A stretch of DNA of 48,520 nucleotides from Candidatus Methanoperedens nitratireducens (GTDB lineage Archaea > Halobacteriota > Methanosarcinia > Methanosarcinales > Methanoperedenaceae). Below, piece by piece: positions 4,308-25,167 of the stretch. The translations under genes and the position numbers were made by a program. How positions within the stretch are numbered: the stretch's first letter is position 1; every line of letters starts with the position of its first letter. Below the pieces are notes generated by a model. The model did not search any database. It was given only the letters and a program-made list of their open reading frames with translations, and was not told where the DNA came from. The stretch lies in contig NZ_JMIY01000007.1 of NCBI RefSeq assembly GCF_000685155.1, forward strand, positions 394,808 to 443,327. The letters are read 5' to 3'.

Positions 4308-4823
4308 CTATTCTACAAAAATAGTGATATTGCTGGATTTTACCGTACCGAGCCAGTAGGGATTTGTTATTCTCTCATCTTTGGCCGGGCCTGTATGGTA
4401 CACAGCGCTTAAGGTGTACGCTCCTTTCGTAAGATTCCAGCAGCTAGAATCCTGAGTTGCAGTTATGGAATCTCCTGGCTGTAGAGTAATCAGGTTCTCA
4501 TTTGTCAGTGGAAATCTCTGAATTATTCCACAGTTGTAGGATACTTTAGCCCCATCCTGATAAGAAAAGAGTATATCATAGCTTACCTGCTCTTCCAGCA
4601 TCCATAAATTTATGCTCTTGCTGTCTGCATTTGATAATATCAGGTGAATTTTAAAGTTCTCTCCCTCTTCAACCTGAGTTTTTTCAGGTATTATCGTGAG
4701 GTTTAATTCGCCTGTTTGAGAACGTGCTAAAAAGCCGTATGGAATGGAGGTTTTAAACAATACCAGCAAAAAGAATACTGTAAGGAGAATGATTCCGCCT
4801 GATAAGATGTATTGCCTTTTCAT
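4308..4823 (-). CDS. Membrane-anchored beta-sandwich protein, BsuPI-like
   Basis: 171 residues. An uncleaved-looking N-terminal hydrophobic segment (residues 7-27) follows basic residues. The rest is a single beta-rich domain: LNLTIIPEKTQVEEGENFKI, LQPGDSITAT, then GAYTLSAVYH. Such an order resembles extracellular Ig-like or BsuPI-type domains, but I make no functional claim. A GGAGAG ribosome-binding site precedes the ATG, and the upstream gene ends only one base away, so the two are almost certainly co-transcribed. Two cysteines could form an extracytoplasmic disulfide. Confidence 0.55.
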   Translation of the reverse strand: MKRQYILSGGIILLTVFFLLVLFKTSIPYGFLARSQTGELNLTIIPEKTQVEEGENFKIHLILSNADSKSINLWMLEEQVSYDILFSYQDGAKVSYNCGIIQRFPLTNENLITLQPGDSITATQDSSCWNLTKGAYTLSAVYHTGPAKDERITNPYWLGTVKSSNITIFVE

Positions 4824-4824
4824 T

Positions 4825-5976
4825 TCAATCTCTCCTCTTCATTAAGTAAATTATCAAAAGCAGAAGCCCTGCCGCAGGTATTGTCCCAAAGCCCGGCGTC
4901 TTTGGCGTATTTACTGCTTCTGTGGTGTTATTTTCTAATACGCCAGCAATGCGAACTATGCCATTGGGCTCTGCATAGCGTACATAAGGATCGGTTGAAA
5001 CTTTTTTAATAAATTCAGTAATGTTGTTTGTTTCAAAAAGTGCAGATTTCAGAACATTGTTAGCATCATCAAAATTCTTTAATTTACCTTCATGCTTGGA
5101 TGCAAACTCATCAAGCGATGGCGGAAACCTCCAGAATCCAACAATCACCTGATCAGGAACGTATTCATCCCTCATATCCTCTGGATACATTACCCTGGGC
5201 TCTGGCGAATACTCCTTATCTGACCTAATAAACTCAAATTCATCTCTATAGGCTTTCTCAACGCTAGAATCCGTTGAGATTCTATTAATGAAATCTAGCG
5301 TTTGTTGACTTGTTTGTGCAGGTATTGAGATAGGATTTGTCTCAAAGGCAGCCATCTTTATATCATGTTTTGTGAATATCAGCTTTCCACCGTATCTGGA
5401 TGCAAACTCATCAAGCGATGCTGGCATCTCCCTGAAATAGACAACAACAGCTTCTCTGAAAACGGGCATTGGTAGGTCTTCAACCTCGGGCTGGTACTCG
5501 CTTCTTATGGATACTGCATCTTCCACATTTATAGTTGCCGCCGGGATCTCTTCCAGGTTCTTAACTCTTATAGAAACTGCTCCCTCAACATTTTTACTGG
5601 TCAAATTTACCGTTATGGTGTCATGATACACTCCATAGGAGTTGTTCCATCTGAAAATTACATCGTAGATATCTTTCCTTTCAGTGTAAGAAGGCTTTTC
5701 TATTGCTATTACTTCAGCATCACCTGGAAGCATGACCCTGATCTTGGAGTCATTACTGGCAATCTCAACTACACTGATAATCACATCAGTAGATTCTAAG
5801 CCCGGGTAAAGCTCTTTTACTGTGCCTGTGATGATCCTGTCTGAATTATTCACCTGATACGGTATTTCTCCGGCTTCAGTTGCCCAGCTTGTAGAGACTG
5901 CCGCATTTGATAATAATACTAAAGCAAATATCCCGGGCAGAACATACAGTACAATCCTACTCACCTGGTTTAACAT
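4825..5976 (-). CDS. PGF-CTERM surface protein with two subtilisin-propeptide-like repeats
   Basis: 383 residues. There is a signal peptide at residues 1-32, and the C terminus is TPGFGTIPAAGLLLL.. followed by KRRD, a PGF-CTERM sorting tail (archaeosortase substrate anchored to a lipid). The middle has two related units of about 75-90 residues, near 175-250 and 270-345, each with SLDEFAS(R/K)..GGKL/EGKL, then FETN, then a terminal YAEPNGIV-like strand in the second. These resemble I9/fervidolysin-type propeptides that fold and inhibit subtilases, yet no protease domain follows. An inhibitor, chaperone or orphan adhesion role is inference. A 24-base exact repeat marks the two units. Confidence 0.6.
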   Translation of the reverse strand: MLNQVSRIVLYVLPGIFALVLLSNAAVSTSWATEAGEIPYQVNNSDRIITGTVKELYPGLESTDVIISVVEIASNDSKIRVMLPGDAEVIAIEKPSYTERKDIYDVIFRWNNSYGVYHDTITVNLTSKNVEGAVSIRVKNLEEIPAATINVEDAVSIRSEYQPEVEDLPMPVFREAVVVYFREMPASLDEFASRYGGKLIFTKHDIKMAAFETNPISIPAQTSQQTLDFINRISTDSSVEKAYRDEFEFIRSDKEYSPEPRVMYPEDMRDEYVPDQVIVGFWRFPPSLDEFASKHEGKLKNFDDANNVLKSALFETNNITEFIKKVSTDPYVRYAEPNGIVRIAGVLENNTTEAVNTPKTPGFGTIPAAGLLLLIIYLMKRRD

Positions 5977-6170
5977 AATCTCCTCCTGATGTTTATTAAG
6001 AAAGTTGTTTAAATATTTTATGTGACAATCATCTATATGTTCAACTCATAAAAGATTTTCTTAAGCTACGAATGGATTCGTAGCTATCCTGCCTTCATTA
6101 CTCAAAATGCCTCCGGGAAACAAATGATAGAAGAGATTTGCTTAAGATTGATGATGTGCGGAAAATGAGA

Positions 6171-6989
6171 TTATGCTTCTTTCTTGCTCAATACCCTCAC
6201 AATCCTGTCGTGCAGTTTTTTATTTTTTGTCCCTGTTATCGACATGCCTGTTGTCCTCACATCGCCTGATATCACCTGTCCCTTGATATCTGTGAGGGAA
6301 CCGCCTGACTCTTTCAATATCAGGGCAGATGCCATGATATCATAGCCGCTCACAAGCCCGCGGGTATCAACAACACCGTCCAGTGTTCCATCGGCAACAA
6401 AACACATATCTAACGCGATGCTGCCCAGCGCCCTGAGTATGATTGTTTTCTCAAATTCTATCAATCCTGGCGGGACATATGGCACACCGTATGAATACAC
6501 CGATACCACAGGTTTTGGTCTTGTGCCGCGTTTTTTATCGGTAACCCGTTTACCATTTAAAAAGGCACCTCTTCCCCTCACTGCATGGTATATATTCCCC
6601 TGTATATCGCATATCACGGCCATGCTTATATCCTCGAATGTGGCTGCATCCGTTTTTTCAGTGTATGCAAGCGACGTGCAGAAGAAGGGGATACCGCATG
6701 TGGCATTCGTGGAGCCATCTATGGGATCAAAAACCAGCATGAAACCAGGTTTTTTTCCAACAATGCGGTCGCCAAGCTCCTCTGAGATTATCCTCGCTGA
6801 CAGACCACGATTTAAAAGCGCATCATCAAGAGCCTGCTCAGCGGTCATATCGATCCTGCGCGTGATATCCTTTGGCCGCTGCACGACCATCTCTCCATAA
6901 TCTACGTTCTCGTGGATGAAGGATCTTACTACATCCCTTATCTCGACTCCTATCTCTATGAGGGTCTCAATTTCCATGTTCATGTTCAT
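6171..6989 (-). CDS. Inositol monophosphatase family phosphatase (SuhB/FBPase/CysQ-like)
   Basis: 272 residues, the usual length for the family. The metal-binding motifs are complete: SEELGD near residue 70, DPIDGSTN near 88-95 and GYDIMASALILKESGG near 215-230. These Mg-dependent, Li-sensitive enzymes hydrolyse inositol-1-phosphate, fructose-1,6-bisphosphate or 3'-phosphoadenosine phosphate; sequence alone does not say which. The start codon overlaps the end of an APS-kinase-like gene by 23 bases. That pairing favours, but does not prove, a PAP-phosphatase (CysQ) role. MNMNM offers three closely spaced starts. Confidence 0.8.
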   Translation of the reverse strand: MNMNMEIETLIEIGVEIRDVVRSFIHENVDYGEMVVQRPKDITRRIDMTAEQALDDALLNRGLSARIISEELGDRIVGKKPGFMLVFDPIDGSTNATCGIPFFCTSLAYTEKTDAATFEDISMAVICDIQGNIYHAVRGRGAFLNGKRVTDKKRGTRPKPVVSVYSYGVPYVPPGLIEFEKTIILRALGSIALDMCFVADGTLDGVVDTRGLVSGYDIMASALILKESGGSLTDIKGQVISGDVRTTGMSITGTKNKKLHDRIVRVLSKKEA

Positions 6990-22502: not shown

Positions 22503-22697
22503 ATGAAATTCAAAGTCATCATTAGAGAAGGCGAAGATGGCTGGTATGTAGTTGAAGTCCCTTCGCTTCCAGGCTGCATCTCACAGGGCAAGACAAAAAA
22601 AGAAGCCCTTGAGAATATAAAAGAAGCTATCGAACTCTACCTTGAGCCAGAAGATGATCTTTCCTTAGTAGGTGCAGGGCAGGTTGCAAAGGTATAA
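22503..22697 (+). CDS. hicB: HicB-family antitoxin-like protein, apparently solitary
   Basis: 64 residues. The core FKVIIREGEDGWYVVEVPSL, PGCISQGKTKKEALENIKEAIELYL is the classic partial RNase-H-fold HicB domain. A HicA toxin would normally adjoin, but no HicA-like frame is found on either side. A TATA-like TTATAAATA lies about 25-32 bases upstream, implying a leaderless transcript. It may act as a free antitoxin or be degenerate. Confidence 0.7.
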   Translation: MKFKVIIREGEDGWYVVEVPSLPGCISQGKTKKEALENIKEAIELYLEPEDDLSLVGAGQVAKV

Positions 22698-22921
22698 GAG
22701 TAATGCCAATATTTACCAGTGCCCCTGTTTTAGCTCCAAAAATTGTCGCACAGTTAAGATGCTCTAACAAATGCATATAACACCTATGCTTTGCAGTCAC
22801 TAAACCCCACACTGGAAAGTGCAAGGCATCAGTAAGTATGCTCATGGATTCGATATTTCAATCGGTTCATTGGTTCTCTATGTTTATTTATACAGGCGCA
22901 AGGTCATGAATTGATTGTTTT

Positions 22922-23116
22922 ATGCATTTAGATTGTGCTATTTGTAAAAAACCTCTTGCTGAACATCAAACTGTTGAGTACGCTCTAATCAAAATGATAA
23001 CGTGGCATTGCAATCCCCAACATGCCCGATGTATAACCATTGGAGGCGATTGTTTAGATAAAACGCCAGATTGGTTCAAAGACGCAATGCCAGATTGGTT
23101 TAGAAAAGCATTATAA
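22922..23116 (+). CDS. Cys-rich 64-residue protein of unknown function
   Basis: 64 residues. Four cysteine-containing elements (DCAICKKPLAEHQ, WHCNPQHARC, GGDCL) could bind zinc. The C terminus repeats itself: TPDWFKDA then MPDWFRKA. An ATG with an AT-rich upstream region is available. I do not recognise it. It lies about 100 bases before the dual-OB-like gene in the same direction and may be part of the island module or an unrelated small protein. Confidence 0.4.
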   Translation: MHLDCAICKKPLAEHQTVEYALIKMITWHCNPQHARCITIGGDCLDKTPDWFKDAMPDWFRKAL

Positions 23117-23220
23117 TGGAATGAATTCTGATGTCCTTTGGTGTTTGTTCTGAGGTATGGTAGCGTTATTAGTGGTCAATAATGAAAAAATTTTATTGGT
23201 TAGGTTATCTGTTTATAGAT

Positions 23221-23874
23221 ATGATGACAGAGATCGTGAATCTACATGTTTTAGCGATAGCAAGACCTACAAAGAGTGTAGTCTGCGTTGCTGGTATAAA
23301 TGACAATGGTGAGTGGATAAGACCACAAAGAATATTTGAGGATGATATCAAACAAGGTACTAAAATCAATTTTGATATCTTTGGAATTACAAAAATTTAT
23401 GTGGAACCTTGGAAAGGGAAAACAATTCGACCTGAAGACCGTTATTTAATAAAAGCAGTTGGAAAAACGCCTGAATTAACGAGATATATGTCAGAATCAG
23501 AAATCCATAAATTCTTAGAATCACATTTAGATTCATCTGTGGAATCAGCATTTAATAATGGAAGAACATTAGGATTAATTAAACCACGAAATATAATTAG
23601 ATTATATAGCGATATCAATAAAATTAGAATTACTTTCCAAGACTCTTTGGGGAACCAATTCACATGGCCAGTAAGAGATGAATCATTTTATAAAAAATTA
23701 TCTACTTATGAAGAGAAATATCCAGCCAATTTCGTAGAGGAATATTATAAGTGTATGCAAAAAAGCATTACTTATTTCGCTATTGGTTTAACACAAATTT
23801 ATGAAAACAATATAAACGCTGAATACGGCGGATGGCCAATGATAGTAGGAATTCACTGTTTAAAGAGGAAATAA
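23221..23874 (+). CDS. Dual-OB-domain-like protein, island gene 1
   Basis: About 217 residues from tandem ATGs at 23221/23224 (MMTEIVNLHVLAIARPTKS). A longer start at 23182 is open, but an AT-rich TATA-like AAAATTTTA there argues for the later one. The pattern VLAIARPTKSVVCVAGINDNGEWIRPQR and later LIKPRNIIRL, IRITFQDSLG resembles the dual OB-fold family found next to DUF488 genes; this recognition is from memory. AGA/TTA-rich codons differ from flanking genes. Six bases separate it from the first DUF488 gene. Confidence 0.6.
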   Translation: MMTEIVNLHVLAIARPTKSVVCVAGINDNGEWIRPQRIFEDDIKQGTKINFDIFGITKIYVEPWKGKTIRPEDRYLIKAVGKTPELTRYMSESEIHKFLESHLDSSVESAFNNGRTLGLIKPRNIIRLYSDINKIRITFQDSLGNQFTWPVRDESFYKKLSTYEEKYPANFVEEYYKCMQKSITYFAIGLTQIYENNINAEYGGWPMIVGIHCLKRK

Positions 23875-23880
23875 ACACTT

Positions 23881-24327
23881 ATGGATGAAAAGAAGGAAAT
23901 ATTTACTGTTGGATTCGCCCAAAAATCTGCTGAGGATTTAATTAAAACATTAAAAAGTAATAACATAACTAAAATTTTGGATATCAGATTAAGCCCAAAT
24001 TCACAACAAGCAGGTTATGCAAAACAAGACACTTTAGAATATATACTTAGATTAAATGACATTAAATATGAACACAATGCTTTATTAGCGCCAACAAAAG
24101 GAATTTTAGAACATTATCGAAAAGAAGGAGATTGGGAAAAATATGAAAAAAATTTTAATTTATTGCTTGAGCATAGAAAATCAAACTTAAAAATTAATTT
24201 GGATGATAAAGAAAATGGACGGATATGTTTATTATGTACCGAACCAGAACATAGTAAATGTCACAGAAAATTGGTAGCGGAATATTTAGCAAAGCAATTG
24301 AAAAATGTTACAATAATTCATATATGA
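23881..24327 (+). CDS. DUF488 protein, island gene 2
   Basis: 148 residues. The DUF488 signature is complete: FTVGFAQKSAEDLI near 8-22, ILDIRLSPNSQQAGY near 38-52 and the C-terminal CLLCTEPEHSKCHRKLVAEYL near 117-138 with its conserved C..C...CHR. The biochemical role of the family is not established; a nucleic-acid or nucleotide active site using the Cys-His-Arg motif is a guess. It starts six bases after the dual-OB gene and reads as one transcript with it. Confidence 0.8.
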   Translation: MDEKKEIFTVGFAQKSAEDLIKTLKSNNITKILDIRLSPNSQQAGYAKQDTLEYILRLNDIKYEHNALLAPTKGILEHYRKEGDWEKYEKNFNLLLEHRKSNLKINLDDKENGRICLLCTEPEHSKCHRKLVAEYLAKQLKNVTIIHI

Positions 24328-24363
24328 TCACGCTTGTAATGAAATATTTGAAGTGATATTTTA

Positions 24364-25167
24364 ATGGTAAAGATTTCAATAGAAATAGATGCACAATTAA
24401 AAAATCAATTTAAGAGTCTTGCTATAGAGAAATTTGGTAAAAAAAAGAATTTTTTGGCATTGGCTTTAAATGAAGCAATTGATAGATGGATTTCCGAATT
24501 TAAGCTTCCTAATAAAACATTTGAAGATTTTAGTGATTCAAAAGAATCTACTCAAAAATATGCTGACGTTGTAATTGAAGGTTCATCTAAAAATTTGTTA
24601 GAATCAAAAGAAGTGAACTTAAAAGATTTTCAAGATACTAATATAAAATTATTTTACACTATAGGATATCAGAATAAGAATATAAATTTTTTCATAGAAC
24701 TTTTAAAGAAAAAGGGGATAAAGACGCTTGTCGATATTAGGCGGAATATAAATAGTAAGAAAGAAAATTTTTCTGGAGTTGAGTTAGAACATATACTTCG
24801 TCAGCATCAAATAATATACGTATCTTTACCAATATTAGGCCCTCCTTCAGAGATGCGCTACGAATTATATAATACTAAAAATTATCATATTTTTTTCGAT
24901 AAATTTAGAAATTATTTAAAAAATAATATAAATAATTTGAAGAAAATAAATAAACTTACATTTCCAATATGTCTTTTATGTTATGAAGATAAAGCATCTG
25001 AATGTCATAGAAGCATTGTGGCAGAGAAATTAATAGAACTTAATAATGAATGGATGGTTGAGCATATCGAATTAGCTAAAAAAGAGTGGATATCTGAAAA
25101 AGATTTAACAAGCTTTGATGTTAAGATTGAAAACGCCAATAGCCAAATAAGCATGAATGAAGCATGA
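24364..25167 (+). CDS. Ribbon-helix-helix-like segment fused to DUF488, island gene 3
   Basis: 267 residues. Residues 1-46 (VKISIEIDAQLKNQF, FLALALNEAIDRWI) look like a ribbon-helix-helix or Met-repressor-type DNA-binding unit. After a linker, residues about 97-235 form a second DUF488 domain: FYTIGYQNKNINFFI, LVDIRRNINS and CLLCYEDKASECHRSIVAEKL. It is 36 bases downstream of the first DUF488 gene. The two DUF488 domains are divergent, so this is not a recent duplication. The RHH unit might make this the autoregulator of the module. Confidence 0.65.
   Translation: MVKISIEIDAQLKNQFKSLAIEKFGKKKNFLALALNEAIDRWISEFKLPNKTFEDFSDSKESTQKYADVVIEGSSKNLLESKEVNLKDFQDTNIKLFYTIGYQNKNINFFIELLKKKGIKTLVDIRRNINSKKENFSGVELEHILRQHQIIYVSLPILGPPSEMRYELYNTKNYHIFFDKFRNYLKNNINNLKKINKLTFPICLLCYEDKASECHRSIVAEKLIELNNEWMVEHIELAKKEWISEKDLTSFDVKIENANSQISMNEA

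Follow-up and report, generated by a model that had tools for sequence, protein, structure and literature searches.

A cassette of four genes that has moved between archaeal genomes as one piece was found in the window, by which we mean the whole 48,520-nucleotide stretch of Candidatus Methanoperedens nitratireducens DNA that was analysed. It inserts as a unit of about 2.6 kb, and joins a DuOB protein to two DUF488 proteins in a new arrangement of candidate defence gene sets that are already catalogued. DuOB and DUF488 genes proved to be near-obligate partners on viral contigs.

Three genes of the cassette had been described in the first-pass annotation as consecutive, on the same strand and separated by 6 and 36 bases, and an ORF check placed them exactly so. 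All lie on the forward strand: the DuOB protein gene (23221..23874) is followed after 6 bp by the stand-alone DUF488 gene (23881..24327), and this, after 36 bp, by a gene encoding a ribbon-helix-helix (RHH)-like–DUF488 fusion (24364..25167). The DuOB start was assigned to the ATG ATG at 23221/23224; a longer ORF from 23182 is unlikely, because the homologues in two other genomes (L005 and L006, see below) begin at the position matching 23221/23224. The profile search proposed at that stage identified the OB-like gene as DuOB, a tandem OB-fold protein: Pfam PF22557 was matched at 8e-8, with 33 bits for a cut-off of 27, over profile positions 12-185 of 210, across the dual-OB region. Both other proteins matched DUF488 (PF04343: stand-alone 2.9e-19, 70 bits; fusion 3.1e-23, 83 bits; cut-off 22.2) and the “active DUF488-N3” domain (PF22751, DUF488-N3a: 1.3e-10, 42 bits and 2.9e-7, 31 bits, respectively; cut-off 27). 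All these matches exceed the curated gathering cut-off. That both DUF488 domains carry the full signature was also correct: C-x-E-x5-CHR (C-x7-CHR) is intact in each, in alignment columns invariant among homologues. The signature runs from C119-x-E121 to C127-H128-R129 (24235-24267) in the stand-alone protein, and from C206 to R216 (24979-25011) in the fusion, whose DUF488 domain spans 24643..25074, all on the forward strand.

The cassette is larger than first noted, as a small Cys-rich ORF of 64 aa (22922..23116, forward strand) upstream of the DuOB gene makes up the fourth gene. Its relatives were found by phmmer (6e-36) in the L005 and L006 cassettes; the protein is present in 3 of 60 genomes, every one with the cassette, and gave no match in Pfam. 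The other two copies are 72-80 aa long, with an extra N-terminus holding three Cys that the window copy lacks. A 24-bp tandem repeat (23062-23109) lies at the end of the window protein and encodes PDWFKDAM/PDWFRKAL-like units, one of which is missing from L006. Homology to L006 at the DNA level (blastn) covers 22845-22892 and 22913-25159 of the window, and the DNA separating these two segments is about 175 bp shorter in the window than in L006. The first, 48-bp segment (22845..22892, forward strand) also forms part of the cassette; it is 83% identical to L006:4385-4432, just within the L006 insertion described below, and is probably the promoter region.

Conservation was examined in the Methanoperedens genomes. 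The window DuOB type, and with it the four-gene cassette, was present in 3 of 31 genomes, where it occupies two different sites. L005 and L006 (contigs G020:C11 and G017:C48), which carry the other copies, keep the order small ORF–DuOB–DUF488–fusion and the 6- and 36-bp gaps, with identities to the window of 63-64% for DuOB, 86-87% for DUF488, 78% for the fusion and 77% for the small ORF. These two copies have pheT on one side and a P-type ATPase gene on the other; the window cassette is flanked by a PfpI/HicB-like region and a radical SAM gene. In a closely related genome, G003, pheT (91% identical) directly abuts the P-type ATPase gene, and the extra DNA of L006 relative to G003 (4360-6938, 2,579 bp) consists of exactly the four genes. 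The expectation that the three genes would be conserved together was thus confirmed by this neighbourhood comparison, in which they form part of one co-transferred unit. The conserved block in two other genomes and the empty site rule out chance neighbours. Every cassette gene is under purifying selection, with dN/dS values of 0.15-0.35 (0.17 for the small Cys-rich ORF, and 0.35 for DuOB, the fastest-evolving), which indicates that the genes are retained by selection; together with the order and spacing kept in two other genomes, these values make the arrangement far beyond chance.

The idea of a “mobile island” stood in part. The cassette itself looks mobile, with its low GC content (28-29% against 44% elsewhere in the window, 27% against 42% elsewhere in L006) and the empty site elsewhere, but the flanks in the window are ordinary genes. 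No clean empty site was found at the window's own position, where radical SAM–GuaAb is conserved and the cassette side is variable. Neither an integrase nor a tRNA marker was found at the cassette ends, and inspection by eye showed no terminal repeat; tRNA-associated integration was discarded, the sole tRNA of the window being 15 kb away. A HicB-like antitoxin ORF (PF15919, 1e-10; 22503-22697) lies just upstream of the cassette, and no other defence genes were recognised in the 12-28.6 kb part of the window.

The N-terminal 47 or so residues of the fusion (24364..24504, forward strand) had been called RHH-like. The sequence pattern fits, but no RHH profile of Pfam was matched. Comparison with the genome's own RHH_1 proteins by hhalign gave an E-value of 0.0018, over the ribbon only, with a probability of 15%, and the predicted model shows two helices at low confidence. 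The segment is conserved (dN/dS 0.135). We presume from its sequence that it is DNA-binding and autoregulatory; inverted repeats of at least 10 nt, as RHH operator candidates, were not found in the window leader. The domain that precedes M19A DUF488 (for the family names, see below) varies among relatives, being ParB, MazE (6e-7), Panacea-like (weak match) or, in the window, RHH-like.

Structures were predicted for DuOB and for the fusion; sequence searches gave no credible solved homologue. The AlphaFold2 model of DuOB (pLDDT 80, pTM 0.82) is beta-rich, with two OB-like halves. Its top PDB fold matches were HIN-200 domains (2.8e-4), followed by Teb1, POT1 and telomere end-binding proteins, all of them OB-fold DNA binders. 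HIN domains consist of two OB folds, bind the backbone of dsDNA and act in innate immunity (PMC7830601). DuOB shares the tandem OB folds with the HIN-200 proteins AIM2, IFI16 and p202, but differs from them in sequence, with 8-13% identity, and no sequence match to HIN was found in the PDB. The TM is about 0.4; between them, the fold matches of DuOB and DUF488 range from weak to moderate. Judging from the model, the resemblance is one of a shared kind of fold, not of family membership. In the alignment of DuOB relatives, C22, R34, R70, E72 and D153 are invariant polar residues, unusual for a plain OB binder; they could point to a ligand site or an active site.

For the fusion, the DUF488 core was modelled with high confidence and the N-terminus poorly. 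PDB matches of the DUF488 model were weak (best E 0.009) and include the RapZ C-domain and PTP/DSP-type phosphatases. In the model a strand terminates at C206, and R216 sits where the following helix begins; we take this placement to be as in PTP-like enzymes. In 2023, Burroughs and Aravind reportedly placed DUF488 with RapZ-C and DUF4326 in a rhodanese-phosphatase superfamily; they are also said to have predicted DNA-end processing in virus-host conflicts. DUF4326 forms a distinctive clade of the rhodanese-phosphatase superfamily (PMC9503650), and an archaeal fusion of a ParB-CTPase fold with DUF488-HTH binds CTP (PMC12704722).

The partnership of DuOB with DUF488 was assessed on viral contigs fetched by the two DUF488 queries alone. 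Thirty-six were obtained, 22 with M45C-type and 14 with M19A-type DUF488 (one further weak match, L211, was left out), and in 36/36 of these contigs DuOB lies directly beside DUF488. In 34 of them DuOB was called by profile, with a spacing of at most 36 bp; in L201 it was called by Pfam, and in L204 the upstream ORF resembles that of L201. Among 393 sampled Halobacteriota genomes, 7 DuOB genes scored above the cut-off, and each of them adjoins a DUF488 gene. The co-occurrence of dual-OB and DUF488 genes, given as known in the first-pass annotation, is systematic, on plasmids as well as on viral contigs. Viral contigs yielded no close relative of the RHH-like fusion, of the archaeal M19B DuOB or of the first DUF488 alone.

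Exceptions were seen. Two DuOB–RecQ genes of the same order have no DUF488 in the stretch covered, the DuOB of a Gordonia phage has an HTH repressor as its neighbour, and plasmids carry solo DUF488 genes. In the Gordonia phage, the temperate Nymphadora (L243:2027-3828), DuOB-like gp43 directly follows gp44, annotated as immunity repressor; genes for an ImmA-like protease and an integrase lie close by, and no DUF488 was seen. Solo DUF488 genes with uvrA/uvrB and formaldehyde genes were located at L244:796-7072, L245:1894-7784, L246:5001-10194, L250:4001-7261 and L251:796-6432; the formaldehyde genes there are fghA, a frmR-type repressor, and formaldehyde or S-(hydroxymethyl)glutathione dehydrogenase. 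No literature linking DUF488 to formaldehyde was found.

Other partners recur. In relatives, DuOB is fused to a RecQ helicase that is DpdF/PsyrT-like by PADLOC (1e-233). Such fusions lie at L060:6439-9186, L063:6-3041 (reverse strand) and L064:4478-7339 (reverse strand); PADLOC gave the DpdF/PsyrT-like match in all three, Pfam recognised DEAD, RQC and HRDC in L060, and the fusion adjoins DUF488 genes in L060 and L063. A DUF4326-type gene (mSLOG–DUF4326 where scanned) is a partner in 12 loci, and XRE with ImmA/IrrE in 4-5 loci. Phage-like and plasmid loci (L197, L200-L204, L206-L210, L053, L247, L249) showed DUF4326-type genes adjacent to DUF488, and nearly all of these loci have DuOB as well; L249, a small CMY-31 beta-lactamase plasmid, has no annotated DuOB. 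Taken as a set, the partners (RecQ–DuOB, ParB–DUF488, MazE–DUF488, XRE with ImmA/IrrE, mSLOG–DUF4326) point to DNA.

The view that this is an undescribed system did not survive comparison with the catalogues. In PADLOC-DB (2023) these families are already modelled, under the names PDC-M19 and PDC-M45, as candidates for defence systems; Pfam has DuOB and DUF488-N3a as named domains. From PADLOC model names and reference loci, PDC-M45 would consist of DuOB, M45B and M45C (Agrobacterium pAt1D1108a), and PDC-M19 of a ParB–DUF488 fusion and DuOB (Sulfolobus pSOG1 and S. shibatae pBEU9E1). In the window, the stand-alone DUF488 matched PDC-M45C (5e-42), the fusion PDC-M19A (1.6e-33), and DuOB PDC-M19B weakly (8e-5) and PDC-M45A not at all at E up to 1. 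No complete PADLOC system was matched at the locus. In a tree of 95 DUF488 domains, the stand-alone protein is a member of the M45C clade (100/99 support); the fusion branches outside M45B and M45C, nearest to the M19A group on a long unresolved branch; it also scores higher as M19A than as M45B. In the DuOB tree, the window protein has its own long branch outside the M19B clade and groups with RecQ-fused DuOB (96/83), a grouping that is tentative as the branches are long.

The cassette therefore resembles each candidate system in part. With PDC-M19 it shares the fusion of an N-terminal domain to DUF488 and the DuOB partner, but it has an RHH-like domain in place of the ParB, MazE or Panacea-like one, a DuOB distant from M19B, and in addition the stand-alone DUF488 and the small Cys-rich ORF. 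With PDC-M45 (M45A, M45B and M45C) it shares a DuOB gene followed by two DUF488 genes, the first M45C-type; M45C is however the only strong match, M45B being replaced by the RHH-like fusion of M19A affinity. The Halobacteriota loci with DuOB–RecQ, whose helicase is DpdF/PsyrT-like, and two DUF488 genes have the DuOB and DUF488 partners in common with the window, where DuOB lacks the helicase. On the PADLOC matches and the DUF488 and DuOB trees, the window locus thus appears to mix PDC-M19 and PDC-M45, with a first DUF488 of M45C type and a second that is M19A-like. The PADLOC web-server paper makes no mention of PDC systems, and no experimental defence data for any DuOB–DUF488 set were found in the literature searched.

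What could such a cassette do? We give an even chance to its being a DNA-directed Cys-phosphatase conflict cassette, a candidate for defence, autoregulated by the N-terminal domain of the fusion. A nucleic-acid-directed conflict role, as suggested in the first-pass annotation, fits a conserved, co-transferred unit and the DuOB/DUF488 pairing on viral contigs and plasmids; of this reading, only the anatomy and the mobility of the cassette have been observed so far. DuOB would bind DNA through its two OB barrels and recruit its DUF488 partners to DNA that is foreign or aberrant, at ends, junctions or modified sites. DUF488 would be a rhodanese/PTP-like Cys enzyme, with C206/C119 as nucleophile and R216/R129 binding phosphate, and would remove or transfer phosphate at a DNA terminus or on a nucleotide, so that replication of the invader, or its packaging, is blocked. 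The RHH-like N-terminus may repress the operon, tether the second DUF488 enzyme to DNA, or both.

We did not place the defence reading higher because solo M45C-like DUF488 genes beside uvrA/uvrB and formaldehyde genes suggest repair. DNA repair is a serious rival, if on balance unlikely: DuOB would recognise damaged or crosslinked ends and DUF488 clean the terminus, as a phosphatase or end-processing enzyme, giving damage tolerance rather than antiviral defence. The solo proteins are 40-44% identical to the window protein. Plasmids of Klebsiella, E. coli, Aeromonas, Comamonas and Acinetobacter encode them next to uvrA or uvrB together with formaldehyde-related genes, and more than 80 plasmid records contain close relatives; the fusion of DuOB to RecQ and the resemblance of its model to telomere-end binders go in the same direction. 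However, no Uvr or detoxification gene accompanies the window cassette, DuOB was neither annotated nor apparent in those formaldehyde loci that were examined, and the patchy, low-GC distribution and carriage on viral contigs fit conflict better.

A toxin-antitoxin-like or addiction module, in which the N-terminal DNA-binding domain of the fusion would be the antitoxin and autorepressor and DuOB or the stand-alone DUF488 the toxic component, seems to us a little less probable than repair. The N-terminal domains on M19A DUF488 do resemble antitoxins, the operons are tight with short overlaps, and plasmids and prophages carry them. Against this, the active-site signature is intact in both DUF488 domains, so that no obvious inactive antitoxin is present, and the ParB-type fusions on Sulfolobus plasmids fit DNA targeting equally well. 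Very improbable, lastly, is an accessory metabolic or housekeeping enzyme set merely located in a variable chromosomal region. The DUF488 superfamily is indeed widespread, with at least a weak match in 163/393 Halobacteriota genomes, most of them without DuOB, but the restriction of the cassette to three genomes of the genus at two sites speaks against such a set, and the empty site of G003 largely refutes it. Moreover, the first DUF488 belongs to the DuOB-linked M45C clade and the second is nearest to the DuOB-linked M19A group, not to the common solo ones.

A further-reaching version of the conflict reading, which we regard as a long shot, would make DuOB a prokaryotic tandem-OB DNA sensor like HIN-200, and its DUF488 partners a new class of DNA-end phosphatase or phosphotransferase serving antiviral conflict and, when solo, repair of formaldehyde damage; the cassette would then be a compact, self-regulated version with a Cys-rich fourth subunit. 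DUF488 is a common domain with a Cys signature, and it is found here in a minimal, clearly bounded four-gene unit, together with a near-obligate partner of predicted DNA-binding fold. This makes the substrate of DUF488 and the PDC-M19 and PDC-M45 candidates directly testable, and the plasmid link of DUF488 to uvrA/uvrB and formaldehyde genes opens a second, independent way to assay these enzymes cheaply.
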